From positions 124,001 through 188,000 of the forward strand of contig JAESPD010000001.1 of the NCBI GenBank assembly GCA_016756855.1: a stretch of DNA of 64,000 nucleotides, in the 5' to 3' direction. This document shows positions 1,089-19,465 of the stretch, one piece after another. The DNA is from a gamma proteobacterium endosymbiont of Lamellibrachia anaximandri (GTDB taxonomy: Bacteria; Pseudomonadota; Gammaproteobacteria; Chromatiales; Chromatiaceae). A program made the translations under genes and the position numbers. Within the stretch, counting starts at the first letter, position 1, and every line of letters starts with the position of its first letter. The notes beneath the pieces were generated by a model. That model was not told the origin of the DNA. It saw only the letters and a program-made list of their open reading frames with translations, and made no database searches.

Positions 1089-3068
1089 TTATTTATTCAG
1101 ATAGATAACATCCGCCCCGTTGCTGCTGGATTGCCCGTTCGGTTGGGGGCCGTGCTCCGGTACCAGGGAGTGCAGCGCCTCGTCCAGTCGTTGGATGTCC
1201 ATGGATTTACAGGCTTCGGCAACCGTTTTCATGGTCTCATTGAGACCGTCCCAGTCCACCTTGCGGTGGCGTGCGAGAAACACCTTTTCGTGCCGGGTCT
1301 TGTCGAGCGCCTCTTTTTCGTGAAACAGCTCCTCGAACAGCTTCTCTCCAGGGCGCAGGCCAATGTACTCGATTTCGATATCCTCTCCCGGCTTTTTACC
1401 GGATAGGTGGATCATCTGTTCAGCCAGATAGCTGATCTTCACCGGTTCGCCCATGTCCAACACAAAGATCTCGCCGCCAACCCCGAGCACCACCGTCTGC
1501 ATGATCAACTGGCAGGCCTCCGGGATAGTCATGAAGTAACGTTCCATGCGGGGGTCAGTCACGGTGACCGGCCCGCCTGCGGCGATCTGCTTGCGGAAGA
1601 GGGGAATCACGCTACCCGCTGAGCCGAGCACATTTCCGAACCGGGTAGTGATAAACCGGGTGTTGGAGTGCGCGTTGAGATTTTGGCAGAAGATCTCCGC
1701 CGCGCGCTTGCTCGCGCCCATGATATTGGCCGGGTTGACCGCCTTGTCGGTAGAGACCAGTACGAAGACGCTGCTGTTGAACTGGTTTGCCGCTTCAGCC
1801 ACATTACGGGTGCCGAGCACATTATTACGCATCGCCTGACGTAGCTGGGGTTCCAGCATGGGAACGTGTTTGTAGGCGGCTGCGTGGAAGATGACATCGG
1901 GGCGGTGCCGGGTGAAAACATCGTCGACATAGGGACGGTCGGTGACGTCGCCAAGGTGGCACTCCAGTTCCAGGTCGGGAAAAGCCTTCTGCAGTTCCAT
2001 CTCGATGGAGTAGAGATTGAATTCACTCTGTTCCAGGATCACCAGCCGTGTTGGTTTTAGCCGGGCCAGTTGACGGCAGAGCTCCGAGCCGATGGAACCT
2101 CCACCGCCGGTGATCAGCACGGTTTTGTTCGACAGGGCCCGATCGATGGCGGGCCAGTCAAGCGAGACCGGTTCGCGTCCCAGCAGGTCCTCGATGGAGA
2201 CCTCACGGAGGTCGTTGATCCGCACATTGCCGGACATCAGGTCGTTGAGCTGTGGTACCGCCTGGAAGGGTATGTGGGCCTGTTCACAAAACTCGACCAC
2301 CCTGCGCATCTGAGAGGAAGTGGCCGACGGCAGGGCGAGCATGATGATGTCGATTTCGTATTGCTCGGTTAATGCCGGGATCTCATCGCAGCCACCGGCG
2401 ACGGGTATGCCGTGGATGTCCCGTCCCAGGTGTCGCGGGTTGTCGTCGGCAAATGCCATGGGCTGAAAGGCGTCGTGGCGGTTGCGCAGAATGTCTCTGG
2501 CCAGCATCTCCCCCGCCTTTCCTGCGCCAACGATGAGTACGCGCTGACCGGAAGAGAGATAGAGCTGGTTGTCCTTCAGCCAGCGGTAGAGCATTCGCGG
2601 GCCGCTGAGCAGCAGCAGCAGAAGCAGGGTGTAGATGACGGGAACGGAGCGGGGTATCTCCTCTGCCCGGGTGATCACAAAGAGCAGGGCCATGCCGATG
2701 GCGCTGCCAACCGCAACCGCTTTGAGGATTCTGAGAAGATCCGGTAGAGAGGCAAAACGCCAGATTCCCCGGTAGAGTCCGAAAGCGATAAATGCGCCAA
2801 GTTGTACCGGAAGTATGATCAGCAGGGCCTTTAAGCCCTCATCGAAAAATTCAACCGGCAGCAGGTCAAGGTTGTACCTCAGCCAGAATGCAAGGGTCCA
2901 GGCGATGGGCACCATCAGAGTGTCATGAATCAGAGCCGTGCCCTGGGACTGGAATCGAGCAGGAATGATGTTTTTTCGCATGTCCTTGTCTGGCGCTTCT
3001 CTTTGTAGAAGAGTGATTCTATCATGGTCGGTTTCGCGACCCCTATCTGGAGCATTTGAACGAATCAT
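1089..3068 (-). CDS. Membrane NDP-sugar 4,6-dehydratase, WbpM/FlaA1/CapD family
   Basis: A 659-residue inner-membrane protein matching WbpM-type dehydratases (about 660 aa). The N-terminus has four hydrophobic segments (about residues 50-165), followed by a CoA-binding-like domain (RVLIVGAGKAGEML) and a C-terminal extended SDR domain with the NAD motif TGGGGSIGSE. The catalytic region reads VSTDKAVNPANIMGASK, with Met where most SDRs have Tyr, as is usual in this family. Members convert UDP-GlcNAc to the 4-keto-6-deoxy sugar, the entry to QuiNAc, FucNAc and bacillosamine-type sugars. The first ATG (3068) overlaps the start codon of the divergent ligase gene; a later Met at 2981 (MRKNIIPAR) is an equally reasonable start. 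Family certain, substrate inferred. Confidence 0.92.
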   Translation of the reverse strand: MIRSNAPDRGRETDHDRITLLQREAPDKDMRKNIIPARFQSQGTALIHDTLMVPIAWTLAFWLRYNLDLLPVEFFDEGLKALLIILPVQLGAFIAFGLYRGIWRFASLPDLLRILKAVAVGSAIGMALLFVITRAEEIPRSVPVIYTLLLLLLLSGPRMLYRWLKDNQLYLSSGQRVLIVGAGKAGEMLARDILRNRHDAFQPMAFADDNPRHLGRDIHGIPVAGGCDEIPALTEQYEIDIIMLALPSATSSQMRRVVEFCEQAHIPFQAVPQLNDLMSGNVRINDLREVSIEDLLGREPVSLDWPAIDRALSNKTVLITGGGGSIGSELCRQLARLKPTRLVILEQSEFNLYSIEMELQKAFPDLELECHLGDVTDRPYVDDVFTRHRPDVIFHAAAYKHVPMLEPQLRQAMRNNVLGTRNVAEAANQFNSSVFVLVSTDKAVNPANIMGASKRAAEIFCQNLNAHSNTRFITTRFGNVLGSAGSVIPLFRKQIAAGGPVTVTDPRMERYFMTIPEACQLIMQTVVLGVGGEIFVLDMGEPVKISYLAEQMIHLSGKKPGEDIEIEYIGLRPGEKLFEELFHEKEALDKTRHEKVFLARHRKVDWDGLNETMKTVAEACKSMDIQRLDEALHSLVPEHGPQPNGQSSSNGADVIYLNK

Positions 3069-4281
3069 GATGACTTGGCGTCAATGGCAGCAGCGGTTTG
3101 ATCTGGCTGCCCGGGGCATGGCGGTGTTCGCCGCTTTTAGCGTGCCGATGCCGACCGCATGGCTCACAGTCGCGATGGGCCTGCTTCTGATTTTCTGGCT
3201 GCTGGGTGGCGGCTACAGCAACAAATGGCGGAGGATGCGGGAAAATCCACTGACTCGCTGGTCGCTTCTTCTGCTGCTGGCATTTGCTCTGGGGCTGCTC
3301 TACAGCAGTGCCGGGATGGATGAGGCGTTGGACAAATCGGGCAAGTATCTCAAGCTGCTCTATATCCCCCTGTTGATTTCGCTGCTCGACAGCCGCCTTT
3401 GGCAAAAGCGTGCGGCCAACGGCTTTCTGTTGGCGATGCTGCTTACCCTGGTCGCCTCTTGGGGCATGTATGCTGATCTGATTCCCCAGGCGACAAAGCT
3501 GTTCCCGAATACAGTGTTCAGAGGGCGCATTGCACAGAATTTCTTTATGGCCTTCACCGCCTACCTGCTGTTTGATCGATTTATGCGGGATAGTGGTCGT
3601 TGGCGCTGGTTTTGGGGTTTGTTGTTTGGTCTGGCACTGATCAATGTGTTGGTGTTGGTTGGGGGGCGCACTGGCCAACTGGTTCTGCTGGTGCTGGTTC
3701 TGCTGGCCGCCGTGCAGTATCTGAACTGGCGAGGCCTGCTTGCTGGAGGGCTGGTCATTGTGTTGATCACTCTGCTCTCCTACCAGTTCTCGGAGAACTT
3801 CAGTAATCGGGTCGATCTGACCCTGCAGCGTTTGGGCGCGTTCAGTGAAGATTCCCGAGATCATGATCAGGTGGGTAATCGCCTGGAGATGTATGGCAAC
3901 TCACTGGAGCTGATTGGCCGTCATCTGCTGATCGGTACGGGCAGTGGCAGTTTTTCGGTTGAGTATGCCGAACTGGCACGGCAAAAGGGGTTGGAGTTGT
4001 TGTCCGACAATCCCCACAACGAGTATCTGAATATCACGGTGCAGCTGGGGCTGGTGGGTCTGCTGCTCTTCCTGCTGCTGCTTTACAATCACTGGCGCCT
4101 CTCCGCGCAGGTTGATCCGCTCTTCCGTGGATCCTCCCAGGCCCTGCTGGTGGCGATGGCTGCGGGCTGTCTCTTCAACTCCTTCCTGATGGACAGGGGG
4201 GAAGGCAGCTTCTATGTCGTTCTGACGGCGGTCTATCTGGCTGGCCTCAGCCACGCCCGTCTGCGGGAGAGGGAAGGTTGA
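3067..4281 (+). CDS. O-antigen ligase / polymerase (Wzy_C, WaaL-like) membrane protein
   Basis: About 404 residues with ten or more predicted membrane spans. The key motif SDNPHNEYLNITVQLG, in a periplasmic loop near the C-terminus, is the hallmark of the Wzy_C/O-antigen ligase superfamily (conserved HN pair and following Leu). Such proteins move polymer from undecaprenyl pyrophosphate to lipid A core, polymerise repeats, or glycosylate pilin (PglL). The reading frame extends upstream to 2938, but that part is hydrophilic and overlaps the divergent dehydratase gene, so I chose the MMTWRQ start at 3067. It is followed 27 bases later by a glycosyltransferase gene on the same strand. Ligase versus polymerase cannot be decided from sequence alone. 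Confidence 0.85.
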   Translation: MMTWRQWQQRFDLAARGMAVFAAFSVPMPTAWLTVAMGLLLIFWLLGGGYSNKWRRMRENPLTRWSLLLLLAFALGLLYSSAGMDEALDKSGKYLKLLYIPLLISLLDSRLWQKRAANGFLLAMLLTLVASWGMYADLIPQATKLFPNTVFRGRIAQNFFMAFTAYLLFDRFMRDSGRWRWFWGLLFGLALINVLVLVGGRTGQLVLLVLVLLAAVQYLNWRGLLAGGLVIVLITLLSYQFSENFSNRVDLTLQRLGAFSEDSRDHDQVGNRLEMYGNSLELIGRHLLIGTGSGSFSVEYAELARQKGLELLSDNPHNEYLNITVQLGLVGLLLFLLLLYNHWRLSAQVDPLFRGSSQALLVAMAAGCLFNSFLMDRGEGSFYVVLTAVYLAGLSHARLREREG

Positions 4282-5467: not shown

Positions 5468-6640
5468 ATGAACAGAGACGATTTCCTGCCTTTTGCTCTG
5501 CCCAGCGTCAGCGAAGATGAGATAAAGGAGGTGGTGGACACCCTGCGTTCCGGCTGGTGGACCACGGGCGCCAAGGCGAAAAGATTCGAGGCCGATTTCG
5601 CAACATTTGTCGGTGCCCGCCACGCCATCGCGGTCAACTCAGCTACGGCCGGTCTGCACCTGGCTCTGGAGGCGATCGGCATAGGTCCGGGGGATAAGGT
5701 GATTACCACCACCTTTACCTTTACCGCTACGGCCGAAGTGATCCGCTACCTGGGGGCTGATCCGCTGCTCGTCGATATCGATCCACAGACCCTCAATATC
5801 TCGGTGGATCAGGTGGAAGATGCCTTGAAAAACCACCCGGAGGTAAAGGCGATAATGCCGGTCCACTTTGCCGGTCAGGCCTGCGAGATGGATGAACTGC
5901 TGGCGCTGGCTGAACAGTATGGCGTCAGGCTGGTTGAGGATGCAGCCCATGCACTGCCGGCGACCTACAAAGGCCGCAATATCGGTACCCTGGGGGATGC
6001 CACGGTCTATAGTTTCTACGTGACCAAGACCATAGCCACCGGTGAAGGCGGCATGGTGGTGACCGACGACGATGCCATCGCCGAGCGGGTGCGGGTGATG
6101 CGCCTGCACGGTATCAGCAGGGATGTCTTCGACCGCTATACCTCAGATAAACCCGCTTGGTATTACGAAGTGATTGCGCCCGGTTATAAATACAATATGA
6201 CCGATATCGCTGCCTCTTTGGGGTTGCATCAGCTGAAGCGGGCCGAGGCATTCCGTCAGCGGCGTGAACTGATGGCACAGCGTTACGATGTTGCCTTTGT
6301 CGATCTGCCGGTGCGGCTGCCTTTCGTCAAACGTCCCGATGATCTCCACGCCTGGCACCTCTATGTGCTGCGTCTGCAGACGGGGGAGCTGACCATCGAC
6401 CGCAACCGATTTATCGAACTGATGGCCGAGCGGGGCATAGGCACCAGCGTGCATTTTATCCCGCTCCATCGCCACCCCTATTGGCGCGATACTTACCAGC
6501 TAGATGCCGCCAACTTTCCCGTTGCTGAACAGGTCTTCGCTGAATGTGTCAGCCTGCCGCTATTCCCGGCCATGAGTGATGCGGACCAGCATCGGGTGAT
6601 CGAGGCGGCAACGGCCATTCTGCTGGACGCCTGCCGGTGA
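5468..6640 (+). CDS. DegT/DnrJ/EryC1/StrS-family sugar aminotransferase
   Basis: A 390-residue fold-type I PLP enzyme. It shows the phosphate-binding [11 protein letters not shown], the LVEDAAHA aspartate motif (about residues 155-161), the Schiff-base lysine at about 187 in [15 protein letters not shown], and [13 protein letters not shown] near residue 235. Such enzymes aminate keto-deoxy NDP-sugars. It overlaps the next gene (PglC-like transferase) by four bases (GTGA), and the WbpM-type dehydratase is 2.4 kb away, so a likely substrate is UDP-4-keto-6-deoxy-GlcNAc, as in the PglF-PglE-PglC set. That substrate is inference; ArnB- or PseC-like roles are possible. The start follows an 88-base gap after the glycosyltransferase. 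Confidence 0.88.
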
Positions 6641-7236
6641 TCGCCAAGCGTCTCTTCGATCTGCTACTGACTCTGCCGGGGTTGTTGTTGCTGCTGCCGT
6701 TGATGGCAGTGATCGCACTTTGGGTGCGGCTCGATAGTCCAGGGCCGGTGCTGTTTCGCCAGCAGCGGGCGGGTCGTGATGGTGTCTCCTTCGCACTGCT
6801 GAAATTTCGCAGTATGCGAGTCGATGCCGAGAAGCTGGGACCGAAGGTGACAGTGGGGGCCGACCCGCGCATCACCCGCAGCGGGCAGTTTTTGCGCAAG
6901 TCGAAGCTGGATGAACTGCCCCAGCTCTTCAACGTGGTGATGGGGCAGATGAGTCTGGTGGGGCCGCGTCCAGAGGTGCCGGAGTATGTGGCCCACTACC
7001 CGGCAGAGATCCACGATAAGGTGTTCTCGGTGCCCCCGGGTATTACCGATCTTGCGTCCATCGAGTTCCGCAATGAGAACGCTATGCTGGAGGGGGCAGA
7101 CGATCCGGTTGCCACCTACCTCAACGAGATTATGCCGATCAAGCTCGACTACTATGTCTCTTACGTGGAGCAGCGCAGCTTATGGCTCGACCTGAAGATT
7201 ATCTTCAGAACCTTCTGGGCGGTCGTTTCACATTGA
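6637..7236 (+). CDS. Undecaprenyl-phosphate sugar-1-phosphate transferase (PglC-like)
   Basis: A 199-residue bacterial sugar transferase: one N-terminal hydrophobic re-entrant segment (residues 8-30), then KFRSMR (56-61), the catalytic Asp-Glu pair at about 92-93 in KLDELPQL, and GPRPE. Length and motifs match minimal monotopic phosphoglycosyl transferases such as C. jejuni PglC. The enzyme starts repeat-unit assembly by moving a sugar-1-phosphate from a UDP-sugar to undecaprenyl phosphate. It starts with GTG overlapping the aminotransferase stop (GTGA), which implies translational coupling and suggests that its substrate is the amino sugar made by that neighbour. It converges with the minus-strand aminotransferase gene downstream. 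Confidence 0.9.
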
Positions 7237-7279: not shown

Positions 7280-8425
7280 TCACCCGCTGGTTGGGTACGT
7301 TTTGACTGCCTCTATCACCCGCTTTTGGCTGGCCTCATCCATATCGGTATAGAAAGGCAGGCGCACCAGCTGGTCGGCCACATCACGGGTAACCGGGCAG
7401 CCGAGGGGCGCACGTCCTTCGGCCTGTCCCATATCCGAGTCGTGCAGCGGCAGATAGTGGAAGACGGCGGAGATCTGCTGCGCCTTGAGATGCTGGATGA
7501 AGGCGCTGCGTGCTTCCAGCGACGGCATCAGCAGGTAGAACATGTGGTAGGCCTGCTCGCAATGGGCGGGGATGGTGGGCATGCCGGTCCGCCGGTCTGT
7601 AGCCCAGCCGGTCAGCCCTTCACGGTAGTTTTCCCAGACCTGCTTGCGGCGGGCCTGAATCGAATCGACGTGGGAGAGCTGGCCGAAGAGGAAGGCGCTC
7701 AGAATGTCGGAGATGACATAGCTCGATCCCCTGTCCACCCAAGTATATTTATCGATCTGGCCACGGAAGAAACGCGCCCGGTTGGTGCCTTTTTCACGGA
7801 TGATCTCAGCCCGCTCGATATAGGTCGGATCGTTGATGATCAAGGCGCCACCCTCGCCGCAGGTGATGTTCTTGGTCTCATGGAAGCTCTGGGTCGCCAT
7901 GTGACCGATGGTGCCCAGATGACGCCCCTTGTATTTGGCGTAGAGACCGTGGGCGTTGTCCTCGATGACGATCAGGTTATGGGCCTTGGCGATGGCCATG
8001 ATCTCATCCATCTCGCAGCCGACACCGGCGTAGTGAACCGGCACGATGGCGCGGGTGTTGTCGGTAATCAGTGCCTCCAGTTTGGTCTCGTCCATGTTCA
8101 GGGTATCGGGACGGATGTCGGCAAACACGGGGATTGCGCCATGCATCAGGAAGGCCAGTGCGGTGGAGACGAAGGTATAGGAGGGTACGATTACCTCGTC
8201 GCCCGGCTGCAGGTCGAGCAGGATAGCGGCGATCTCCAGCGCATGGGTGCAGGAGGTGGTCAGCAGTACCTTCTCGGTATCGATCAACTGCAGCTCCAGC
8301 ATCGCCTGGACCCGCTTGGTGAATGGGCCGTCTCCAGCCACCCAGCCGTTTTCAAAGGCCTCGGCGATCAGGTCGGTTTCGTTGCCGGCCCAGGCCGGGC
8401 GGTTGAAAGGGATGGGGTTATTCAT
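7280..8425 (-). CDS. wecE: dTDP-4-amino-4,6-dideoxygalactose transaminase-like (WecE/RffA)
   Basis: A 381-residue DegT-family aminotransferase whose N-terminus (IPFNRPAWAGNETDLI, then GWVAGDGPFTKR) closely follows E. coli WecE (RffA), which makes dTDP-Fuc4N from dTDP-4-keto-6-deoxyglucose. The Schiff-base lysine is at about 185 (SFHETKNITCGEGGA). The frame opens at 8440, but the ATG at 8425 overlaps the upstream methyltransferase stop as ATGA, so I use it. No RmlA or RmlB is in the window; the dTDP-sugar must come from elsewhere in the genome. The product is a good candidate substrate for the acyltransferase at 11053. Family firm, exact sugar inferred. Confidence 0.85.
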   Translation of the reverse strand: MNNPIPFNRPAWAGNETDLIAEAFENGWVAGDGPFTKRVQAMLELQLIDTEKVLLTTSCTHALEIAAILLDLQPGDEVIVPSYTFVSTALAFLMHGAIPVFADIRPDTLNMDETKLEALITDNTRAIVPVHYAGVGCEMDEIMAIAKAHNLIVIEDNAHGLYAKYKGRHLGTIGHMATQSFHETKNITCGEGGALIINDPTYIERAEIIREKGTNRARFFRGQIDKYTWVDRGSSYVISDILSAFLFGQLSHVDSIQARRKQVWENYREGLTGWATDRRTGMPTIPAHCEQAYHMFYLLMPSLEARSAFIQHLKAQQISAVFHYLPLHDSDMGQAEGRAPLGCPVTRDVADQLVRLPFYTDMDEASQKRVIEAVKTYPTSG

Positions 8426-9045
8426 AATGGTCCAGTGCACTGCAGAATGGCGTGACTGTATGGGATACGCAGCAGGTCAGTTCGCACCACAAGATCGACC
8501 TGTTTGAAATGTTTCATTGCCAGTTGTCGATAGGCTTCGGGTTTACGAACATTCTGGCCCCGGTCCCTGGATATGACCCAATTGGCCAGCGGGTTACCGC
8601 CATCAAGGTAGCAGGGGTCGAGGGTGACTAAGCGGGTCTCGGGTTTTGCCACCGAGGCGATGTTGGCAAACAGATCCTGGACCTCATCGTCTGAGAGGTG
8701 GTGCAGCAGCCCTTTGGCAACGACTATGTCAGGTTTTCCCAGTGCCGCGTAGTCCAGACCGGCGACATCGGCGCAGACAAAATGGCCCGTATCTCCATGT
8801 TCGTTTCGGGCGGCGGTGATGTAGTCGCTGGAGAGGTCCATGCCCACGTAGTTCACCCCATCCGGTAGATAGTTGAGCAGATTTCCCGTGCCGCAACCGA
8901 CATCCAGCAGCCGGTTGCCAGCCGTCGCCCGAATAAACTGATCAACAAAGATATGGCGGTTCTTTTTGCCCAGCAGATCCTGCAGCCACTGGTAGACGCT
9001 GGCATGGGAGAGAATGGCGCGGATTCCACTGGTTTCTTGAGTCAT
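8422..9045 (-). CDS. Class I SAM-dependent methyltransferase
   Basis: A 207-residue Rossmann methyltransferase. Motif I is LLDVGCGTGNLLNYL (about residues 48-62), followed by VGMDLSSDYI (acidic ribose-binding residue) and VVAKGLLHHLSDDE. It belongs to the small-molecule or sugar methyltransferase group; the target is not evident. It is coupled at both ends: ATGA overlap with the upstream AglD-type membrane protein gene (9042-9045) and with the downstream WecE-like gene (8422-8425), so three genes form a tight minus-strand operon. Methylation of a sugar or lipid-linked intermediate is inference from context. Confidence 0.85.
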   Translation of the reverse strand: MTQETSGIRAILSHASVYQWLQDLLGKKNRHIFVDQFIRATAGNRLLDVGCGTGNLLNYLPDGVNYVGMDLSSDYITAARNEHGDTGHFVCADVAGLDYAALGKPDIVVAKGLLHHLSDDEVQDLFANIASVAKPETRLVTLDPCYLDGGNPLANWVISRDRGQNVRKPEAYRQLAMKHFKQVDLVVRTDLLRIPYSHAILQCTGPL

Positions 9046-9923
9046 CTTGACTGGAGTTGTTCGCTGCTTCGACTGAGATTGAGCATGATACCGCCAATCA
9101 GGCCGACCAGCACCTTGCTCAGATAGACCATGAAGGAGAAGAGGATGGCGGAGGAGGGATCTACGCCGAACAGTGCCAGCACGCCAACCAGGGTGCCTTC
9201 CCGGACCCCAAGTCCCCCCAGAGAGATCGGCAGGAGCGTCGCGATAATCGCCACTGGCATGGCGATCAGCAGCCAGAAGAGAGGGGTCTCAGGGAAAACG
9301 TAGGAGAGAATCAGCCAGGAGAGCAGGGCATCGCTGCCCTGTGCCAGCAGACTGAGCAGAAAGGCGGTGATGGCGGTGTGCAGGGGCAGTCGAAATCTGC
9401 GGGAGGCGAAGATGATTATCAGGCTCAGTAGTACAACCGCAGCAATCAGCAGATGGATCTGATACTGGCCGAAATCGATATGGGGCAGGTTGGCACCCCC
9501 CAACAGAAGACCGATGAGAAACAGGCTGAGCAAGGCGCCGACCCCGAACAGTCGCTCCATAAAGATGATCAGTCCTGAGGTCTTTAGATTGATTCCCGTA
9601 TGCGACATGGCGTAGTTGATGCGCATCAGGTCGCCGCCGATGGCGCCGGGCATGAAGATGTTGAAAAAGGCGCCGAACAGGTAACCCTGGTAGGCCTTTG
9701 CAAAGGAGAGATTTCTGGGGTTTTTCTGGCCGATCAGCAGTCGCCAGCGGGTTGCCATGAACAGGTTGAGGCCCAGTGTGCCGGTCGTACCGATTGCAAT
9801 GTAGAGCAGCGCGTAGGCATCGAGGCTGGCCAAACGTTGCCAGTCGAGCAGGTAGAACAGACCGGCAAGCAGGGTGATCGAAACAGTGGCCTTGACGGAT
9901 TTAGGCAGCTTAATCGGCTTCAT
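9042..9923 (-). CDS. Lysylphosphatidylglycerol synthase TM-region / UPF0104 family membrane protein
   Basis: A 293-residue integral membrane protein with about seven or eight spans, of the LPG_synthase_TM (AglD, UPF0104, YbhN-like) family. Landmarks are TRWRLLIGQ after the second span, FFNIFMPGAIGGDLMR in a re-entrant loop, and LPISLGGLGVREG near residue 240. Family members resemble the flippase half of MprF and often sit next to polyprenyl-phosphate glycosyltransferases. It is first of a three-gene minus-strand unit; the divergent GT2 gene starts at about 10091. A role in moving a lipid-linked sugar across the membrane is suggested by family and neighbours only. Confidence 0.8.
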   Translation of the reverse strand: MKPIKLPKSVKATVSITLLAGLFYLLDWQRLASLDAYALLYIAIGTTGTLGLNLFMATRWRLLIGQKNPRNLSFAKAYQGYLFGAFFNIFMPGAIGGDLMRINYAMSHTGINLKTSGLIIFMERLFGVGALLSLFLIGLLLGGANLPHIDFGQYQIHLLIAAVVLLSLIIIFASRRFRLPLHTAITAFLLSLLAQGSDALLSWLILSYVFPETPLFWLLIAMPVAIIATLLPISLGGLGVREGTLVGVLALFGVDPSSAILFSFMVYLSKVLVGLIGGIMLNLSRSSEQLQSR

Positions 9924-10090
9924 GATGGGGTGACTGGCAGAGTGCTTGCTGAGTTTAGTCCGTTAAGGAGGGGCAGCCCCTATAGTGAGAAGATGATCGA
10001 GTATCCAAAGATGCGGCGGTCTGGATTTGATTGTACCATTGTTCGCATCTGTCTCATGCTCCCTACAGGATGCTGAAAAACCCGGTTTGT

Positions 10091-11053
10091 ATGACAAAGA
10101 TATCGCCCCACCTCTCTGTAGTCTCCCCCGTTTACGGTTGCGCGACGATCCTGCCTGCGCTCTGTGCCGAGCTGGCTGACAGTCTTGCCGCCATTACCGA
10201 AGAGTATGAGATCATCTTCGTTAATGACGCTTCCCCCGATGGTGCCTGGGAGGTGATCCAGCAGTTGGCGGAGGCTGACCCGCGCATCCGCGGGGTCGAT
10301 CTGTCGCGTAACTTTGGCCAGCATGCGGCGATACGCGCTGGCTTGGCGCTGGCCCGGGGCGACTGGGTGGTGGTGATGGATTGCGATCTGCAGGATCAGC
10401 CAGCAGAGATCCCCAAACTTTACGCCAAGGCGATGGAGGGCTATGAGGTGGTTTTCGGTCGTCGGGAAAGTCGGCGGGATTCCCCAGCCAAGGTGCTATC
10501 GGCACGTCTTTATCGCAAGGTTCTAGACTACTTTACCGACAGCAACAGTGACCCTGCCGTGGCCAACTTTGGTATCTACCAGCGCAAGGTGATCGAGGCC
10601 TTCAATGGCATGCAGGAGCAGACCCGCACCCTGCAGTTGACCATCCGCTGGCTCGGTTTTCATGCAACCTCCATCAATATTGAACATGCGCCTCGTAGGG
10701 AGGGGCGCTCCAGTTACAATTTCAGGCGCTTGCTGAGCATGGGCCTGAACATCATTGTCTCCGAGTCGAACAAACCCCTGAAGCTGTCGATCTCCTTCGG
10801 CTTTTTCATGGCTATGATCTCCCTGCTTTACGCCCTCTATCTGGTGGCCCGCTACTTTATCTTGGGAGTCGCTGTAGCGGGCTGGACCAGCGTTATCGTC
10901 TCCATCTATTTTGTTGGCGGTCTGCTGTTTGCCAACCTGGGTATACTCGGGCTCTACCTCGGGAAGGTGTTTGACGAGACCAAGGCGCGTCCGATCTATG
11001 TGGTGAGGGATTGTACCTGGCCAGCGGATAACGGTACGGAGAGTCGTCGCTGA
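10091..11053 (+). CDS. GT2 polyprenyl-phosphate glycosyltransferase (DPM1/ArnC-like) with TM tail
   Basis: About 320 residues. The N-terminal GT-A domain shows LSVVSPVYG, FVNDASPDGAW and VVMDCDLQDQPAEIP (the Asp-x-Asp-type metal motif with the LQDQP signature of dolichol-phosphate-mannose-synthase-like enzymes). Two C-terminal hydrophobic segments (about 235-255 and 270-295) anchor it. Such enzymes make a polyprenyl-phosphate-linked sugar used by periplasmic GT-C transferases. The frame opens at 10031 with other possible Met codons at 10070 and 10091; 10091 fits the family N-terminus best although no clear ribosome site precedes it. Its stop overlaps the next gene by one base (TGATG), placing it in the acylation operon. 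Confidence 0.85.
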   Translation: MTKISPHLSVVSPVYGCATILPALCAELADSLAAITEEYEIIFVNDASPDGAWEVIQQLAEADPRIRGVDLSRNFGQHAAIRAGLALARGDWVVVMDCDLQDQPAEIPKLYAKAMEGYEVVFGRRESRRDSPAKVLSARLYRKVLDYFTDSNSDPAVANFGIYQRKVIEAFNGMQEQTRTLQLTIRWLGFHATSINIEHAPRREGRSSYNFRRLLSMGLNIIVSESNKPLKLSISFGFFMAMISLLYALYLVARYFILGVAVAGWTSVIVSIYFVGGLLFANLGILGLYLGKVFDETKARPIYVVRDCTWPADNGTESRR

Positions 11054-12006
11054 TGGCGCAATACTTTCCTGCTGTAGCAGAGTCCGAATTTGCCTGGACG
11101 GCTTTTGTCGAACGACATGCAGCCCACTTCGGAGTCAGCCGTGTTTTACAGGCAGAGGAAGCAGCCAATCTGCGGCGTACAGGATTTATTTGGTCTGAAC
11201 GACCCTATACTCTCTGCCTGGCGGCAAACCGGCAATATATCGCCCAGGCGCTGGATAACGACAATATCTTGGGACTCATCACCCACAGCCGTTTTATCGA
11301 CAAACTGGCAGGGCATGAACAGAAGATGGTGATCTGCTGCGATGAGCCTGCAGAACTCTTCTATGCCATACATAATCTGGTGATCCACAGGCCTTTCATG
11401 GGGTCGGTGACCACAGAGTCATCAATCGCATCCAGTGCGCAGATCGCCCCAAGCGCAATCATCCATGAAGGCGTGACAATCGGCGAGCGGGTTGTCATCC
11501 ACGATGGTGCTATCATCCTGCCGGGCACGGTGATCGGGGAGGAGAGCGAGATCCATCCGGGGGTGACCCTGGGTACTACTGGCTTCTTCTCAAAACCCAT
11601 CTTCGGCAAAAAGACCCAGGTCGACCATTTTGGTGGTGTGTCAATCGGTTCAAACTGCATCATCCACGCCAGATCCAATATCTCCCGCTCGGTGAATCAT
11701 GATGAACGGACGCTGATTGCAGACAATGTGCATATGGGGATCGGGGTGAATATCGCCCATGACTGCAAAGTGGATGTGGATGCAGATATCTCTGCCCGGG
11801 TGGTACTTGCGGGACGAGTGAAGGTCGGGCGGCGGTGTTGGATCGGTGCGGGCGTGCTGGTCTCCAATGCCCTGACCATCGGTGATGATGCAGAGATCAA
11901 GATCGGCTCAGTGGTAGTCTCCGATGTAGAGCCTGCGACCGTTGTCTCCGGTAACTTTGCTGTCAGCCATAAGCAGCGACTCAAGGCGTATCTTTCAAGG
12001 CGTTAA
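11053..12006 (+). CDS. LpxD-like left-handed beta-helix acyltransferase
   Basis: A 317-residue protein. The C-terminal two thirds (about 115-300) is a run of hexapeptide repeats (IAPSAIIHEGVTIGERVVI and similar) with the signature TTGFFSKP, close in arrangement to the catalytic core of LpxD, the ACP-dependent N-acyltransferase of lipid A. The N-terminal 110 residues are not a clear LpxD uridine-binding domain. The true lpxD normally sits with fabZ and lpxA, so this is probably a paralogue for another amino sugar. It begins one base inside the GT2 stop codon and is followed by an unknown gene, a FabH-like gene and an ACP gene, which would supply its acyl donor. Substrate is inference. Confidence 0.8.
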   Translation: MAQYFPAVAESEFAWTAFVERHAAHFGVSRVLQAEEAANLRRTGFIWSERPYTLCLAANRQYIAQALDNDNILGLITHSRFIDKLAGHEQKMVICCDEPAELFYAIHNLVIHRPFMGSVTTESSIASSAQIAPSAIIHEGVTIGERVVIHDGAIILPGTVIGEESEIHPGVTLGTTGFFSKPIFGKKTQVDHFGGVSIGSNCIIHARSNISRSVNHDERTLIADNVHMGIGVNIAHDCKVDVDADISARVVLAGRVKVGRRCWIGAGVLVSNALTIGDDAEIKIGSVVVSDVEPATVVSGNFAVSHKQRLKAYLSRR

Positions 12007-12011
12007 ACATC

Positions 12012-12566
12012 GTGTCTGAATCTCAAAACTGGTTTGTGTTTCGTGGTCAAAGGGAGTACCTGCACGGAGCGAGTATCTTCGACTTCATCGTTACAGAATT
12101 TGCCCGGAAGCTGGGGGAGCCAGCACAGATAGATTTCATCTTCTTGCACAAGACGACGCACTATTGCAGGGTAGAGTCAGCGAAGCGAGGCAATGCCAGT
12201 CTGGTGGCCAGCTATGCGGATGACCGTGCACAGTATTTTCTGTATGAGACGGATGAGCCGATCACGGAGCGGGTGGCTTATAGTGAGCCTGTCGAGGGTG
12301 AGCATTTCGTGATCGAGGGTAAGCGGGTTTTCATCGGTACTGCGGACAATACCTTTATCGAGCTGGCAGTGGCCGCCTACAAAGGTTTATTGACGGCGAT
12401 TTTCCCGGAGACGAAGGGTAAACATATCCTCTCCAGAATCCAGCTTGAACGGATCCCCACCTCACCCTTTGAGATTCATTATAAAAGAAAGATCGCCAAA
12501 CGATTTTATGAAGGTGAGATCAGTATCGGTGGAGACGCCGTTGGTTTGATCTACTTTGGAGCCTGA
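12012..12566 (+). CDS. Unrecognised 184-aa protein in the acylation operon
   Basis: Starts with GTG five bases after the acyltransferase stop. The protein is soluble, with no signal peptide or membrane segment. Visible features are RGQREYLHGASIFDFIV near the N-terminus, a His-Cys pair (TTHYCRVES, about 50-58) and a basic C-terminal part (FEIHYKRKIAKRFYEGEIS). I do not recognise a family. The position between an LpxD-like acyltransferase and the FabH/ACP pair suggests a part in making or handling the acyl thioester, for example a dehydratase, thioesterase or hotdog-type protein, but no catalytic motif proves this. Codon use looks like that of its neighbours and the gene spacing (5 and 2 bases) argues strongly that it is real. 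Confidence 0.8.
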   Translation: MSESQNWFVFRGQREYLHGASIFDFIVTEFARKLGEPAQIDFIFLHKTTHYCRVESAKRGNASLVASYADDRAQYFLYETDEPITERVAYSEPVEGEHFVIEGKRVFIGTADNTFIELAVAAYKGLLTAIFPETKGKHILSRIQLERIPTSPFEIHYKRKIAKRFYEGEISIGGDAVGLIYFGA

Positions 12567-12568
12567 TA

Positions 12569-13531
12569 ATGGGGAGCGTGAGAGAATCAGCAGTTGGAAT
12601 CAGGACCATCGGCAGCTATCTTCCTGAGGAACGGGTCGATAATCTGGCGCGGATTGCCACATTTGGCAAAGACGAAGTTTTTGTCAAAGAGAAGCTCGGG
12701 TTTACAAAACTGGCGAGAAAATCAACGGATGAAGAGACCTCTGACCTCTGCGTGAAGGCCTGTGAAAATCTGCTGAAACAGGTAGATCTGCCACTTGAGG
12801 AGGTTGATTGTTTGATCGTCTGCACCCAAAATCCTGATGCGGCTGGTTTGCCCCACACATCCGCCATTGTCCATGCCAAATTGGGTCTTGGAACCTCTGT
12901 AGCGGCCTTCGATATCTCGCTGGGTTGCTCTGGTTATGTTTATGGTCTGTCGGTGATTTGCAGTTTCATGGAGATGAATGGCCTCAGCAACGGCCTGTTG
13001 TTCACCGCAGATCCCTACTCTAAAGTGCTCGATTCGGCGGACTACAATACAGAGCTGTTGTTTGGAGATGGTGCCACCGTGACCTGGTTGAGCCGGGATA
13101 AGCCCTGTTACCGGCTGGGTCGCAGCCTCTTCTCCACCAATGGCTCAGGCCAGGGTGCGATTCATGTGGATAGTGAGGAACGTAAGGTGCACATGAAGGG
13201 ACGTTCGGTTTTTACCTTCACCATGAAGGTGGTGCCGCAGCAGATCAAAGCCTGTCTCACAGCCAATGATTGCACGGTTGATGATGTCGATCGTTTTCTG
13301 CTGCATCAGGGTAGTAAGTTTATTGTCGATAATATGACTGCGAGTCTGGGGCTTCCCGTAGAGAAGACGCCGTTCATGGCGGCTGAGTATGGCAACACCA
13401 TCTCTTCCAGTATCCCTATGATGCTGAAAACACTGCTTGATGAGCGGCCTGAAAAGATATTGATAAGTGGCTTTGGCGTCGGCCTCTCCTGGGCCACCTC
13501 ATTGCTGTTCAGAGATCCAGACAATTGTTAA
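12569..13531 (+). CDS. 3-oxoacyl-ACP synthase III (FabH-like)
   Basis: A 320-residue thiolase-fold condensing enzyme with the complete KAS III triad: Cys120 in DISLGCSGYVYG, His246 in LLHQGSK and Asn276 in EYGNTISSSIP. It starts two bases after the preceding stop. FabH-type enzymes condense an acyl-CoA with malonyl-ACP. Here the partner is almost certainly the ACP encoded 13 bases downstream rather than the fatty acid synthesis ACP, so the enzyme probably makes a short 3-oxoacyl-ACP for sugar acylation. Comparable KASIII/ACP genes occur in Pseudomonas flagellin-glycosylation islands together with VioA/VioB-like enzymes, which supports this reading. No ketoreductase is visible in the cluster, so reduction would need an outside enzyme. 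Confidence 0.9.
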   Translation: MGSVRESAVGIRTIGSYLPEERVDNLARIATFGKDEVFVKEKLGFTKLARKSTDEETSDLCVKACENLLKQVDLPLEEVDCLIVCTQNPDAAGLPHTSAIVHAKLGLGTSVAAFDISLGCSGYVYGLSVICSFMEMNGLSNGLLFTADPYSKVLDSADYNTELLFGDGATVTWLSRDKPCYRLGRSLFSTNGSGQGAIHVDSEERKVHMKGRSVFTFTMKVVPQQIKACLTANDCTVDDVDRFLLHQGSKFIVDNMTASLGLPVEKTPFMAAEYGNTISSSIPMMLKTLLDERPEKILISGFGVGLSWATSLLFRDPDNC

Positions 13532-13544
13532 CTGAGAGGAGTCT

Positions 13545-13781
13545 ATGATCCCATTAGAAGAGTTCCATGCCGTTGTCGTGGATGCCCTGAAGGTTGTACA
13601 GAAGAACGATGAAATCAGCCTGTCGGTTGATGAGAGTTTTACCGATTTTGGTATCGATTCCCTTGACAGTATGAGTCTGTTGCTGGAGTTGGAGAAGCGT
13701 CTGTCAATCGAGTTTGACGAAGAGTTCGACCTCTTTGAGCATGACAGCGTGGCCAAACTGCACGCCTCTCTTGCTGAATAG
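13545..13781 (+). CDS. Acyl carrier protein
   Basis: A 78-residue acidic protein with the phosphopantetheine attachment serine at residue 39 in DFGIDSLDSM and the usual helix II pattern LLLELEKRLSIEFDEEF. The length equals that of normal AcpP, but the site reads DSLDS, not the GADSLDTVE of housekeeping AcpP, so it is a dedicated carrier. A GAGAGGAG ribosome site lies 8 bases before the ATG. It is the last gene of the plus-strand acylation operon (GT2, acyltransferase, unknown, KAS III, ACP) and ends 50 bases before the convergent methyltransferase gene. Confidence 0.93.
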   Translation: MIPLEEFHAVVVDALKVVQKNDEISLSVDESFTDFGIDSLDSMSLLLELEKRLSIEFDEEFDLFEHDSVAKLHASLAE

Positions 13782-14833: not shown

Positions 14834-16435
14834 TTATATATTGCATTTTCCTGTCCGGGTTAATAGAACATATCGCTCGCCCAAAGGTGTGACTTTGTAG
14901 GATTGAGTCAGGTGCTGACGAATTTGAGGCGCATAATTCCGTAAGTTTGAACCCTTTTGGCCCCCTGCTATGAATTGTTTTCGCATGGCGACAAAATAGT
15001 CTATGCAGTGGTTTTCTATCGCTTGAAGTACGGTATGAGGTTCACCAGGCGCGCCGAATTCAGTGGTAAACAGACGATAGAAGGTTGGGTTTTGCAAACC
15101 TGAAAGATAGGACATGGTCGTAGCTTCCGACATTGGGACGAGTGTGGCTGTCTTGTTCTTAGCTGTGAGTTCCATCATGCGGGTGATGTCTGCCTGCTGC
15201 CTGCGGTAGATGTGCATCCCTTTCAAGAGTGGATGTTCCAGTTCGGTCGTTGGGAAAAATCGTGTAGTCAGGCTTCCTGAATAGATGTGTACACGGCAGA
15301 ACCAGATAGCAAATAAGCTAACAATAAAGATGCCGGTAATTGGCACCCATCTCGCAAGCTTGACATGTCCAGAGAGGGAAAATTTGCTATGGATGTCAGA
15401 CAGGATAATGCTCCAGACAATGTAGATTACTGCAAAGCTGGAGAGCATTCTGGAGTTCCAGACAAAGATGTAGGTATAGGTTAGTGTTCCGATGGCAGTT
15501 ACTGCAATGACCAGCCGGAGCTGGTTCTTTGCCCGGTTAGTGTTCGAGAGAAAAAACTTGTACAGATGAGTTAGAAATAGAGTAAATGCGCCTGCAACAC
15601 CGAGTGCGTAAAACCACTGCTCGGCTTGCGGTCTGGTAAAAAGTGAAAATGGGTTGAATCGTGAAATAATTCCCTGCTTTTCCATCACCTCCCTACCATG
15701 ATTTTGCCAGTAATAGAGGTCTATATTGTTGATGAGAGCGACCCACTTGCCGGCAATAATATACGCCAGAGCCATAAGGCCCAATATGATGACGAGCAGA
15801 GAAAGCATGGAGAATAGCTGTTTGCCAAATGTAATCCATATCTCCCTTCTATTGCGAGCGGTCTGATCAAGTTCATTGCCGATGGCCTGACTGAAGAGGG
15901 TGCCAAAACCAAGAATGAGGGTGATGGTTCCAGCCTGATGGCGCGATATAAATGCGATTCCAATCAGTGCGCCAATCAGAGCCGCACGTTTACTATTGGG
16001 TTGTTTCAGGTAGTAGAGCAGGCTAGCCAGTACCCAGATGATTGAGGCGATAAAGATCACCTTGTACCAGGGGCCAGGAGCAAGAGTATAGAGGATAACG
16101 GGTAGTGGAGCCCAGAGCGCAGGCAGGGCAGATCTGGAAATATAGAGCAGCAGTTGTGCATTCAGCAGCAGTATTGATACAAGTAAAATCCGTTCTGTCA
16201 GTACACCTTCGCCAAAAAGCTGGTTAAAGCCAGCAAGCAGAAAGTAGCTCAGCGGTGGGTAGGAGAAAAAGTCTGCAACAGGCCAGGATCCCTCGGCGAT
16301 TGATGAGGCACCCATAAGAAAAAAACCTTCATCATCCAGAACAATGCCGTAATTGAAAAAGGTAAGGTAGTAGAGCAAACCCCCAACAAATAACATGAGT
16401 TGGGGTTTCTCCAGATAGAGATTGCGTAGATGCAC
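14834..16435 (-). CDS. Multi-spanning GT-C type glycosyltransferase-like protein
   Basis: About 530 residues with some ten membrane spans and a C-terminal periplasmic domain. Near the N-terminus, NYGIVLDDEGFFLMG carries an acidic pair in the first loop, as in GT39/GT83-type transferases, which use polyprenyl-phosphate sugars on the periplasmic side. The frame opens with TTG at 16519, overlapping the upstream gene; a GTG at 16435 with AGG before it is a better start, and an ATG at 16396 is also possible. The polyprenyl-phosphate donor could come from the DPM1-like GT2 at 10091. Family assignment rests on topology and the acidic loop rather than a close match. Confidence 0.7.
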   Translation of the reverse strand: MHLRNLYLEKPQLMLFVGGLLYYLTFFNYGIVLDDEGFFLMGASSIAEGSWPVADFFSYPPLSYFLLAGFNQLFGEGVLTERILLVSILLLNAQLLLYISRSALPALWAPLPVILYTLAPGPWYKVIFIASIIWVLASLLYYLKQPNSKRAALIGALIGIAFISRHQAGTITLILGFGTLFSQAIGNELDQTARNRREIWITFGKQLFSMLSLLVIILGLMALAYIIAGKWVALINNIDLYYWQNHGREVMEKQGIISRFNPFSLFTRPQAEQWFYALGVAGAFTLFLTHLYKFFLSNTNRAKNQLRLVIAVTAIGTLTYTYIFVWNSRMLSSFAVIYIVWSIILSDIHSKFSLSGHVKLARWVPITGIFIVSLFAIWFCRVHIYSGSLTTRFFPTTELEHPLLKGMHIYRRQQADITRMMELTAKNKTATLVPMSEATTMSYLSGLQNPTFYRLFTTEFGAPGEPHTVLQAIENHCIDYFVAMRKQFIAGGQKGSNLRNYAPQIRQHLTQSYKVTPLGERYVLLTRTGKCNI

Positions 16436-16475
16436 GATCGATTGCCTATGAGCCAAACAAATATTTTCGGGAATG

Positions 16476-16994
16476 TTATTTTGGAGGTTGAGCTTTTTTC
16501 TTAAGAAATAGCCGGGCAAGAAAGAGGCAGAAAACGATGTTGATCAGTATGCTGACATAATCCAATGTACGGGGCGAATTGACCTGGATGGACTCGACTT
16601 GATTTAGTCTGAAACCATACTGGCGCATGTTCGTCTCTTTCAATGGAAGCAACTCATTAGCAAGGCATTTTATCTGTTTATTCAGGATGTTTTCCAGGTT
16701 TACATAGAAGCCCCTTGGTTTTGAAAGCTCGGGTAGTGATAGATAGAGTTTGTCTGCAAAGCTAGAGATGACGATTTGGCTTGAGGTGATGCCAGGAATG
16801 TCCTTGATCAGGTATTTCTGGAGCCGCTTTTTGGCCTCGAAAGGAAAGCAGTGAGGGGGTAGGTGCTGATGGTACGTCACCCGTACACGATGTGTGCCGT
16901 CTGTCTGTAGATAAACCCAGGTTGACTGGAGTGAGATCATACCGATCAGCAGTAATATCATCAGTTGTAACAGGTGGCGTTGAAGGCCTTTCAT
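16476..16994 (-). CDS. Small protein with Wzz-like topology (TM - periplasmic - TM)
   Basis: A 172-residue protein: TM helix at about 8-30, hydrophilic periplasmic part of about 115 residues, TM helix at about 147-165, and a basic C-terminal tail. This is the topology of polysaccharide co-polymerases (Wzz), although it is much shorter and I see no clear Wzz proline-rich motif, so homology is not claimed. The open frame extends to 17222, but the ATG at 16994 overlaps the preceding stop codon as ATGA, which fixes the start. Coupling to the upstream multi-spanning protein suggests the two products work together. Confidence 0.7.
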   Translation of the reverse strand: MKGLQRHLLQLMILLLIGMISLQSTWVYLQTDGTHRVRVTYHQHLPPHCFPFEAKKRLQKYLIKDIPGITSSQIVISSFADKLYLSLPELSKPRGFYVNLENILNKQIKCLANELLPLKETNMRQYGFRLNQVESIQVNSPRTLDYVSILINIVFCLFLARLFLKKKAQPPK

Positions 16995-18280
16995 CTGAGT
17001 GCTCCCATGCGCTTCATCCAAGGCTTGGCTATCAGCGTGATGGCGATAATTTGCAGCATGAGAGAGGGGAGAATGTCGATGAGCCCTCCCGTGTAACCAC
17101 GCCAAATAGCCAGCCCAACCAGAAGTCCGATAGGAATCCCAACACGCTCTCCTGCCAGTGCGAGAAGAAAGAGAAACAGCACGGCTGAAACGATCCAAAA
17201 GAGAGGTGGAGCTGATGACCATGCGGCCCCTTCTCCAAAAAACAGGCTTGTTGTTTGACCTGCTGGGTGGCTGGGATAGATGGCGTGATAGAGGTGCTCA
17301 TTAAGATTTGGCTGCTCGGATAGACGTAATTTTCTGGCAAGACCGTCCCATGCCGTTGGTGGTGGAACAGTGTCAGCAAGCTTCCTGGCCATGCTTGCAT
17401 GGTAGAGTGGAGACATGATTCGCTGCATAATCTGCCGCTCTCCCAAGCCTGTGGGCAGAAGGGGTTGTTGTGTGATGTTGGGATCAGACGTTTGCAGGGA
17501 AGAGGCAGGCTGTCTGGCTGCAGAGGAGATGTCTGTTGTTGATTGCCCCGACAGGACATAGGCTTTTCTGGATGCCGAGTCAGTTATTACGGCAGGGATC
17601 AGAAGCAACGAAACAACAATGCCGATAATAAGTCGCTCTGTGAGAATTGGTCGGTAGCGTTTCCAGAGATTGCGTCGGTTCAGTATGTGCCAGATGAAAT
17701 CCAGTAGATAGAATCCTATGCCGAAAATTAGTATTAAGAGTGGTGTGCCGCGAAAAAAGGCCAATGAAGCGACTACAAGTAGAAGTGTCAGCGCAAAATA
17801 GCGGCCGATCCTGGATCTATCCGCAACATACAGCTGGAGCAGTATGGGCCAGCATAGGTTTTCCAAAGACGTAAAGAATCCCTCTCGTTCGATCATGGCC
17901 AGGCGGCCAAGCTGATCAGGTCCGGTGATACGGGTAAAAAAATGGGCGCAGAGAAGAGTGATGACTCCGACAATAAACAAACGGTAGAGGATGGAGTGTT
18001 CGAATGTGTTGGGAGGTAGTACCCAACGTTTAGCGTTTTGCCGCTCCTGTGCGAGGAATAGCGTAGTGATTAGCATCAGGGCTGCCAGACAGAGTCCAGC
18101 GAGGGTTTCCCAGCCAACGGCGATAGTATCCAGTCTGCATTGATCCAGCGGTGTGAGGGTCACCTGACAGACTAGTGTGATATCGCCAAACCAGTGTAGA
18201 TCGGTTTGCCAGATGGCAACGCCAAGGGCGGCAGCCGTATAGAGAATGGCGAGAGTAAGACCTCCGAGAACGTAGATCAA
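16991..18280 (-). CDS. Integral membrane protein, possible polysaccharide polymerase (Wzy-like)
   Basis: 429 residues with about nine hydrophobic segments and a large periplasmic loop (about residues 225-345, rich in Ser, Gln and Pro), a layout common in Wzy polymerases, which are poorly conserved in sequence. The start is TTG at 18280, supported by AAGGA nine bases before it and by its position just after the SQD1-like gene (18-base gap). It overlaps the next gene by ATGA. No catalytic motif is visible; the polymerase call rests on topology, size and position between a flippase-containing operon and a GT-C gene. Confidence 0.6.
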   Translation of the reverse strand: MIYVLGGLTLAILYTAAALGVAIWQTDLHWFGDITLVCQVTLTPLDQCRLDTIAVGWETLAGLCLAALMLITTLFLAQERQNAKRWVLPPNTFEHSILYRLFIVGVITLLCAHFFTRITGPDQLGRLAMIEREGFFTSLENLCWPILLQLYVADRSRIGRYFALTLLLVVASLAFFRGTPLLILIFGIGFYLLDFIWHILNRRNLWKRYRPILTERLIIGIVVSLLLIPAVITDSASRKAYVLSGQSTTDISSAARQPASSLQTSDPNITQQPLLPTGLGERQIMQRIMSPLYHASMARKLADTVPPPTAWDGLARKLRLSEQPNLNEHLYHAIYPSHPAGQTTSLFFGEGAAWSSAPPLFWIVSAVLFLFLLALAGERVGIPIGLLVGLAIWRGYTGGLIDILPSLMLQIIAITLIAKPWMKRMGALR

Positions 18281-18298: not shown

Positions 18299-19465
18299 TT
18301 ATTTTTTAATCCATTGCGAGCGGGCGAGTATCTTGCTTTTGTCGCAACGGTGGGCATATTTTTTCGAGATCTCCATCACCTCATCCAGCAGCCCTTCTGC
18401 CAGCTTGGTGGGTTTGAGGCCAAGATCGAGCAGACACTTGTTATCGACGACCAAGTCATTTTCGGCTGCCTCGTTGCGCGGGTTGTCGAGATTCTGCATC
18501 TCCACCCCGGTCATGTCAGCGACCAGTTTGGCCAGATCCCGGACCCGGTGGGTCTCGGTCAGCTGGTTGAAGATCTGCACCGGCTGGCCCTTCTCTGGAG
18601 GATTGTTGACCGCAAGTTCTATGCATTTCACCGTATCCTGAATATGGATAAAGGCGCGTGTCTGTCCGCCAGTGCCGTGGATGGTCAATGGATAGTCGAT
18701 GGTCGCCTGCATCAAAAAGCGATTGAGCACGGTGCCGTAATCACCGTCATAGTCAAAACGGTTGATCAGGCGTTCATCCAGACGGGTCTCTTCGGTATTG
18801 GTACCCCAGACGACACCCTGATGCAGGTCGGTAATGCGGACAGCATCGTTTTTGTTGTAGAAATAGAAAACCAGCTGATCCATCGTCTTCGTCGTGTGAT
18901 AGACACTGCCGGGGTCAGCTGGATGCAGGATTGACGTCTCGATGCGTTTTCCGTCGGGCAGCGGGATCTCTACGTCCAGGTAACCTTCCGGGATCATAGC
19001 GCCATGATTTTTGTAGCCGTAGACGCCCATGGTGCCGAGGTGCACGACATGAATGTCGAGTCCCGACTCAACGATGGCGCAGAGCAGATTGTGCGTTGCC
19101 CCCAGATTGTTATCCATCGTATAGCGTTTGTGCTTGGGGGATTTCATCGAATAAGGCGCGGCGCGCTGTTCGGCAAAATGCACCACGCAGTCCGGTTTGT
19201 ACTCTTCGATCAGTCGTTCCAGCCGGTCGTATTCTACGGCGACATCCAGATCGATGAACTCAATGCTCTTGCCGCTGATCTCATTCCAGGCCGCAAGTCG
19301 GATCGACATTGGGGCAATTGGCGTCAGGGAGTCGACCTCGAGCTCTACATCGATCTTCCGCCGGGAGAGGTTATCGACAATCAGGACATCGTGTCCCTGC
19401 TGAGACAGATGGAGCGAGGTAGGCCAGCCGCAAAAACCGTCGCCACCGAGAATCATAGTCTTCAT
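18299..19465 (-). CDS. UDP-sulfoquinovose synthase family enzyme (SQD1/SqdB/Agl3-like)
   Basis: A 388-residue extended SDR. It follows plant SQD1 throughout: GGDGFCGWPTSLHLS (NAD-binding), SLTPIAPM, VVHFAEQRAAPYSM, HLGTMGVYG, the YxxxK pair at Tyr189/Lys193, ITDLHQGVVWG and GGQTRAFIHIQDTVKCIELA. SQD1 makes UDP-sulfoquinovose from UDP-glucose and sulfite, the head group of sulfolipid; archaeal Agl3 uses it for glycans. One oddity: where I recall Glu in the SQD1 segment LGTMGEYG, here it is Val, so the exact reaction may differ. The cluster location favours a polysaccharide role over sulfolipid. Family membership is strong, activity inferred. Confidence 0.85.
   Translation of the reverse strand: MKTMILGGDGFCGWPTSLHLSQQGHDVLIVDNLSRRKIDVELEVDSLTPIAPMSIRLAAWNEISGKSIEFIDLDVAVEYDRLERLIEEYKPDCVVHFAEQRAAPYSMKSPKHKRYTMDNNLGATHNLLCAIVESGLDIHVVHLGTMGVYGYKNHGAMIPEGYLDVEIPLPDGKRIETSILHPADPGSVYHTTKTMDQLVFYFYNKNDAVRITDLHQGVVWGTNTEETRLDERLINRFDYDGDYGTVLNRFLMQATIDYPLTIHGTGGQTRAFIHIQDTVKCIELAVNNPPEKGQPVQIFNQLTETHRVRDLAKLVADMTGVEMQNLDNPRNEAAENDLVVDNKCLLDLGLKPTKLAEGLLDEVMEISKKYAHRCDKSKILARSQWIKK

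Follow-up and report, generated by a model that had tools for sequence, protein, structure and literature searches.

We analysed a 64,000-nucleotide stretch of the genome of a gamma proteobacterium endosymbiont of Lamellibrachia anaximandri (assembly GCA_016756855.1, contig JAESPD010000001.1, positions 124,001 to 188,000), hereafter the window, and focused on five plus-strand genes at positions 10091-13781. An earlier note, made from the letters of this DNA, had read them as a module based on an acyl carrier protein (ACP) and dedicated to N-acylation of an amino sugar. The five genes are:

10091..11053, plus strand: family 2 glycosyltransferase (GT2) resembling the polyprenyl-phosphate sugar transferases ArnC and PgfS; PF00535, with PgfS at 215 bits and ArnC at 171 bits, both below their cut-offs
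11053..12006, plus strand: LpxD-like left-handed beta-helix acyltransferase; TIGR01853 at 108-109 bits (cut-off 242.5)
12012..12566, plus strand: unnamed protein of 184 amino acids (aa) with a GTG start, a predicted double hotdog according to AlphaFold2 modelling and structure comparison
12569..13531, plus strand: beta-ketoacyl-ACP synthase III (KAS III) of a FabH-related clade; PF08541/PF08545, FabH TIGR00747 at 168-169 bits (cut-off 292)
13545..13781, plus strand: ACP with attachment Ser39 in the motif GIDSLD; PF00550, E 6.8e-12

As the earlier note had described, these genes form one compact operon, in which a 1-base overlap is followed by gaps of 5, 2 and 13 bases; the mechanically called open reading frame (ORF) of the GT2 gene starts at 10031, upstream of 10091. 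The KAS III is indeed complete, with Cys120, His246 and Asn276 invariant in 24 of 24 sequences, and the assignment of Ser39 as the ACP attachment site is borne out by its motif. The module KAS III shares the Cys-His-Asn triad and the overall alignment with FabH, but scores below the FabH cut-off, carries HQGS where FabH has the motif HQAN, and exists beside a separate FabH in the same genome. At the position aligning near the primer-gate residue it has Leu or Ile.

A profile of the LpxD-like enzyme matches LpxD over both the N-terminal and the beta-helix domains. The profile aligned with the N-terminal part of the structures 2iu8 and 4e75, the invariant His236 of the enzyme aligned with the conserved His of LpxD chains, and its structure model reached a predicted local distance difference test score (pLDDT) of 74.6. 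Both domains and the conserved His of LpxD, the acyl-ACP-dependent UDP-3-O-acylglucosamine N-acyltransferase, are kept in the module enzyme, but it falls far below the LpxD cut-off and is set in amino-sugar loci rather than among lipid A genes.

The 184-aa protein gave no sequence match in Pfam, NCBIfam or PDB, either as single sequences or as a profile, and no family member was found in the plasmids searched. An AlphaFold2 model built with 11 natural sequences as input had a pLDDT of 88.7 and a predicted template modelling score (pTM) of 0.85. In the model, a helix followed by four strands occurs twice, the helices spanning residues 19-34 and 115-130. Comparison with Foldseek and VIA-align returned polyketide synthase (PKS) dehydratase (DH) domains, an enoyl-isomerase of trans-acyltransferase PKS and TesB thioesterases, with Z about 9-11 (maximum 11.1), root-mean-square deviations of 3.2-4.7, about 160 residues aligned and about 10% identity. 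Such Z values are only modestly over the described background of the tool, but the matches span residues 1-184 and are consistently double hotdogs. We thus predict that the 184-aa protein is a double hotdog with the fold of PKS DH domains and TesB thioesterases. It differs from both in being shorter, only about 10% identical, and in having its own invariant residues: R14, E92, K124 and F182 are invariant in 14 members, while Y16 and E117 are nearly so. In the model, E117 (D in one member) falls where the second hotdog helix starts, and may correspond to the acidic residue that DH domains have on this helix.

The genes for the 184-aa protein, KAS III and ACP constitute a triad whose order is intact in at least 15 loci, including the window. 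Loci (numbered L) were gathered by a contig scan based on the KAS III alignment (at least 18 loci) and by profile searches with the 184-aa protein. Triad loci belong to Oleiagrimonas (L005), Lysobacter (L006), beta/rhodocyclales metagenome-assembled genomes (MAGs; L008, L010 and L014), Alloalcanivorax (L011), Legionellales (L013), Legionella wadsworthii (L015) and a proteobacterial MAG (L020); further triad genomes are G046, G191, G116 and G528. A full triad with an LpxD-like gene was also seen at L016, in a MAG labelled as a Thermoplasmata archaeon, which is likely a misbinned bacterial contig or else a case of transfer. The triad genes are mostly coupled by overlaps of 4-14 bases or by short gaps (the overlap between the 184-aa and KAS III genes is 4 bases in most loci), and ACP follows KAS III in every intact triad. 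Since the same order is found in distantly related genomes, the arrangement is not due to chance.

When relatives were searched with the 184-aa protein, one match was obtained in 91 other genomes, in G046, where the order aminotransferase, LpxD-like enzyme, 184-aa protein, KAS III, ACP is repeated. All six genomes found through the 184-aa protein alone (the window genome G000, G046, G191, G359, G116 and G528) have KAS III directly downstream, a result that avoids the bias of searching by KAS III. At the G359 locus (L052, contig C42), KAS III and ACP are preceded by a gene (6628-6981) for just the C-terminal half of the 184-aa protein; this half-length gene may represent a single-hotdog form or a damaged gene. 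A damaged copy is present at L012. A phylum-wide profile survey recovered only the window's own genome among 398, indicating that the module is sparse. KAS III relatives that lack a neighbouring ACP gene (SAR324 loci L003, L004, L007 and L017, and loci L018, L019 and L009; L007 and L009 begin at or near a contig end) had no recognisable gene for the 184-aa protein. By eye, the solo SAR324 KAS III genes, which are of the HQGS type, are flanked on one side by ABC transporter genes of nucleoside type and on the other by a tsaD-like gene.

Triad loci with enough flanking sequence mostly contain amino-sugar genes. WecE and GT2 genes stand beside the triad in the window, L005, L006 and L013, the WecE proteins of the latter three being 46-55% identical to that of the window, and GT2 homologues adjoin the triad in L005, L006, L013 and L015. 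Directly after the GT2 gene of L. wadsworthii (L015) comes an LPG_synthase_TM protein, 27% identical to the window product of 9042..9923. In L006, a small EamA-like membrane protein (3645-3971, minus strand; a weak match below the cut-off) is encoded beside WecE and is reminiscent of ArnE/ArnF flippase subunits. Genes for 3-amino sugars of the FdtA/FdtB type are also among the triad neighbours: FdtA (dTDP-sugar 3,4-ketoisomerase family) occurs with an aminotransferase in L050 and L051, the latter also having RmlB/RmlD, an RmlA-like gene and RmlC. Pseudaminic acid synthase or NeuB with PseG-like genes was detected in L014, L052 and L053. Finally, L008, L010 and L054 have a PseC/ArnB-like aminotransferase gene immediately before the triad, and the L008 and L010 copies are 42-45% identical to that of the window.

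A gene of N-acyltransferase type adjoins most triads. It is LpxD-like in ten loci; other partners are a short hexapeptide protein (L010), a PglD/NeuD-like protein (L053) and an AAC(3)-like protein (L052), and in some loci, such as L020, no acyltransferase partner was recognised. Because sugars and transferases vary around an unchanging triad, the triad looks like a portable acyl-donor module. The earlier note had wanted the co-occurrence of four genes with WecE surveyed, and the outcome upholds its proposal: the genes do recur beside amino-sugar genes in many lineages. The constant core, however, is the 184-aa protein, KAS III and ACP only. Likewise, the acyltransferase that the note had counted among the parts of the operon is present but exchangeable, and the amino sugar differs between loci.

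In the window, the operon is surrounded by the following genes:

7280..8440, minus strand: WecE-type sugar 4-aminotransferase (dTDP-4-amino-4,6-dideoxygalactose transaminase); NF008687 at 559 bits, passing the cut-off of 375
8422..9045, minus strand: small methyltransferase of the divergent WecE operon; Methyltransf_25/12/11
9042..9923, minus strand: LPG_synthase_TM (flippase-like) membrane protein of the divergent WecE operon; PF03706
5468..6640, plus strand: PseC/ArnB-like sugar aminotransferase; TIGR03588 at 409 bits (cut-off 423.5)
1089..3068, minus strand: WbpM/FlaA1-like UDP-sugar 4,6-dehydratase; PF02719 at 389 bits

The scores of the first and fourth of these uphold the statement that WecE-like and other sugar aminotransferases lie nearby. 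A sugar-phosphate transferase gene is also found to the left of the divergent WecE operon, and the whole region, which further encodes a Wzy_C-type protein, a MurJ-type protein, methyltransferases and GT2, is a surface-polysaccharide locus. The product of 8422..9045 may methylate the sugar. The locus also includes a UDP-sulfoquinovose synthase-like protein (18299-19465, minus strand; 348 bits, cut-off 575). Three minus-strand ORFs of 561, 248 and 429 aa at 14834-18280 had no Pfam match and are candidates for a GT-C transferase or polymerase; two of them, partly overlapping, appear by eye to be membrane proteins.

The WecE-type enzyme is the likely source of the amino group, with the PseC/ArnB-like aminotransferase as an alternative source, and WecE suggests that the sugar in the window genome is dTDP-linked 4-amino-4,6-dideoxygalactose (dTDP-Fuc4N). 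The WbpM-like dehydratase and the PseC-like aminotransferase offer a possible UDP-linked route, by analogy with that outlined for Acinetobacter baumannii (PMC3628348). By eye, a GDP-mannose 4,6-dehydratase-like protein was noticed on contig C124 of the window genome (L039).

We consider it likely that the operon represents a portable module supplying acyl-ACP for the N-acylation of an amino-deoxy sugar linked to a nucleotide, in which the triad probably makes a special acyl group and a neighbouring enzyme attaches this group to a cell-surface sugar. We infer each of the reactions of this scheme; gene order, conservation, protein families, catalytic residues and the predicted fold are what was observed. 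Like VioS with its ACP in the Pseudomonas viosamine island, KAS III would start a short chain on the module's ACP; in our view very probably, it would condense an acyl-CoA primer with ACP-bound malonyl, giving 3-ketoacyl-ACP. There is a good chance that the double hotdog acts on the ACP-bound acyl chain as an enzyme of dehydratase, hydratase or isomerase type; its being a dehydratase specifically is a tentative proposal. We also considered that the hotdog might decarboxylate malonyl-ACP, as hotdogs of the YiiD/MadA kind do (PMC8666670); nothing here speaks for or against this. Because no reductase is encoded nearby, keto reduction, if any, would be borrowed from housekeeping FabG, or the keto group would be kept. 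The LpxD-like enzyme quite likely transfers the acyl group from ACP to the sugar amine that the WecE-type or PseC-like aminotransferase provides, and GT2 would then place the N-acylated sugar on a glycan or a polyprenyl carrier. The final acyl group may be of the 3-hydroxybutyryl type or a derivative of it. The earlier note's simplest reading, a special acyl-ACP whose acyl group is put on an amino-deoxy sugar, is thus supported by the co-occurrence and the genomic contexts, although both the nature of this acyl group and its transfer to the amine are inferential.

Several observations weigh against this scheme. A motif scan, which divergent reductases can escape, recognised no ketoreductase-like or short-chain dehydrogenase/reductase (SDR)-like ORF in 24 loci, although one would be expected if a hydroxyacyl group were formed by the module itself. 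The HxxxGxxxxP motif with the catalytic His is absent from the 184-aa protein, and no His is conserved in the 11- and 14-member alignments of its family; it is therefore not a standard dehydratase, and dehydration is not assured. For RmlB, the dTDP-glucose 4,6-dehydratase that supplies the WecE substrate, the best match in the window genome (a draft of 205 contigs rated 100% complete) had 125 bits against a cut-off of 365, so that the substrate of WecE, and hence the exact sugar, is uncertain. Lastly, SAR324 and Legionella steelei have KAS III of the same clade on its own, with no ACP, hotdog or sugar genes around it.

The best surviving alternative, which we still regard as rather unlikely, is that the operon is a mere relative of the Pseudomonas viosamine islands: KAS III and ACP would form acetoacetyl-ACP, FabG would convert it to 3-hydroxybutyryl-ACP, and the LpxD-like enzyme would transfer the acyl group, the hotdog being a proofreading thioesterase or a structural partner that does not shape the product. 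The operon does have the same set of roles as VioA, VioS, VioB, ACP and VioM, TesB-type thioesterases are among the structural matches of the hotdog, and N-(3-hydroxybutyryl) groups have been reported on 3-amino-3,6-dideoxygalactose (Fuc3N) and 2-acetamido-4-amino-2,4,6-trideoxyglucose (QuiNAc4N). However, every locus with KAS III and ACP also has the hotdog gene (in part at L052), in most cases overlapping the KAS III gene, an association suggestive of an obligatory role. The viosamine island encodes a reductase but lacks a hotdog gene.

AfsA, whose substrates are beta-ketoacyl thioesters, is built from two hotdogs. An AfsA-kind function of the 184-aa protein, transferring a beta-ketoacyl group from ACP to a hydroxyl or amine while the LpxD-like enzyme carries out an independent acylation, would accord with this architecture and with the varying or unrecognised acyltransferase partner in some loci, e.g. 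L020. Yet no family member matches the AfsA Pfam family and a separate acyltransferase adjoins the triad in most loci, making such a function quite improbable. Last, although the LpxD-like, KAS III and ACP families are common to lipid A and fatty acid synthesis, we rejected as highly improbable that the operon is a second copy of a set for lipid A synthesis or fatty-acid initiation: canonical LpxD lies beside LpxA on contig C2 (377 bits, cut-off 242.5) and canonical FabH with its ACP on contig C177 (468 bits, cut-off 292), the module proteins score far under the curated cut-offs and their relatives are in sugar loci, so this is not the normal lipid A acylation set that the earlier note had weighed against its own proposal.

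Returning to the acyl-ACP supply module, it is a real, conserved combination of ordinary parts with one unnamed family of predicted fold, and a variant of the viosamine-island kind. A bolder and doubtful extension is that the 184-aa proteins constitute a new double-hotdog enzyme class which, with KAS III and ACP, makes an N-acyl group undescribed on bacterial amino sugars (e.g. an unsaturated or remodelled short chain), the cassette moving among 4-amino, 3-amino and nonulosonic acid pathways and plugging into unrelated acyltransferases. The N-acyl groups on surface sugars determine serotype and influence how phages, hosts and antibodies recognise them, and the synthesis of the less common ones is known for few systems. 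A three-gene cassette reused in three sugar pathways would be a genomic marker for predicting unusual N-acyl sugars and poses a testable enzymatic question.

A literature search that combined KAS III or ACP with sugars carrying 3-hydroxybutyryl led only to viosamine, Acinetobacter and Aeromonas. In the A. baumannii QhbA/QhbB (UDP-QuiNAc4N 3-hydroxybutyryl) pathway, a 4,6-dehydratase, a 4-aminotransferase and an acyltransferase make an N-(3-hydroxybutyryl) amino sugar, and the accessible part of the source describes no KAS III or ACP (PMC3628348). Closer to the window is the viosamine island of Pseudomonas syringae pv. tabaci, comprising vioA, vioM, vioT, vioS, vioB, vioR and acp and treated alongside the P. 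aeruginosa PAK glycosylation island (PMC3927599). There, KAS III, ACP, acyltransferase, aminotransferase and methyltransferase make N-(3-hydroxybutyryl)viosamine, and deletion of the reductase gene vioR abolished modified viosamine on flagellin (PMC3927599). Genes of these five kinds are clustered in the window too, and in both cases an acyl-ACP is the proposed N-acyl donor for a dTDP-amino sugar of a surface glycan. The earlier note's judgement that the two are related yet different thus holds: the viosamine island encodes VioR, a 3-oxoacyl-ACP reductase, and VioB, a short acyltransferase, whereas in the window module, where no reductase was found, a double-hotdog gene consistently precedes the KAS III gene and the role of acyltransferase falls to an LpxD-like enzyme.

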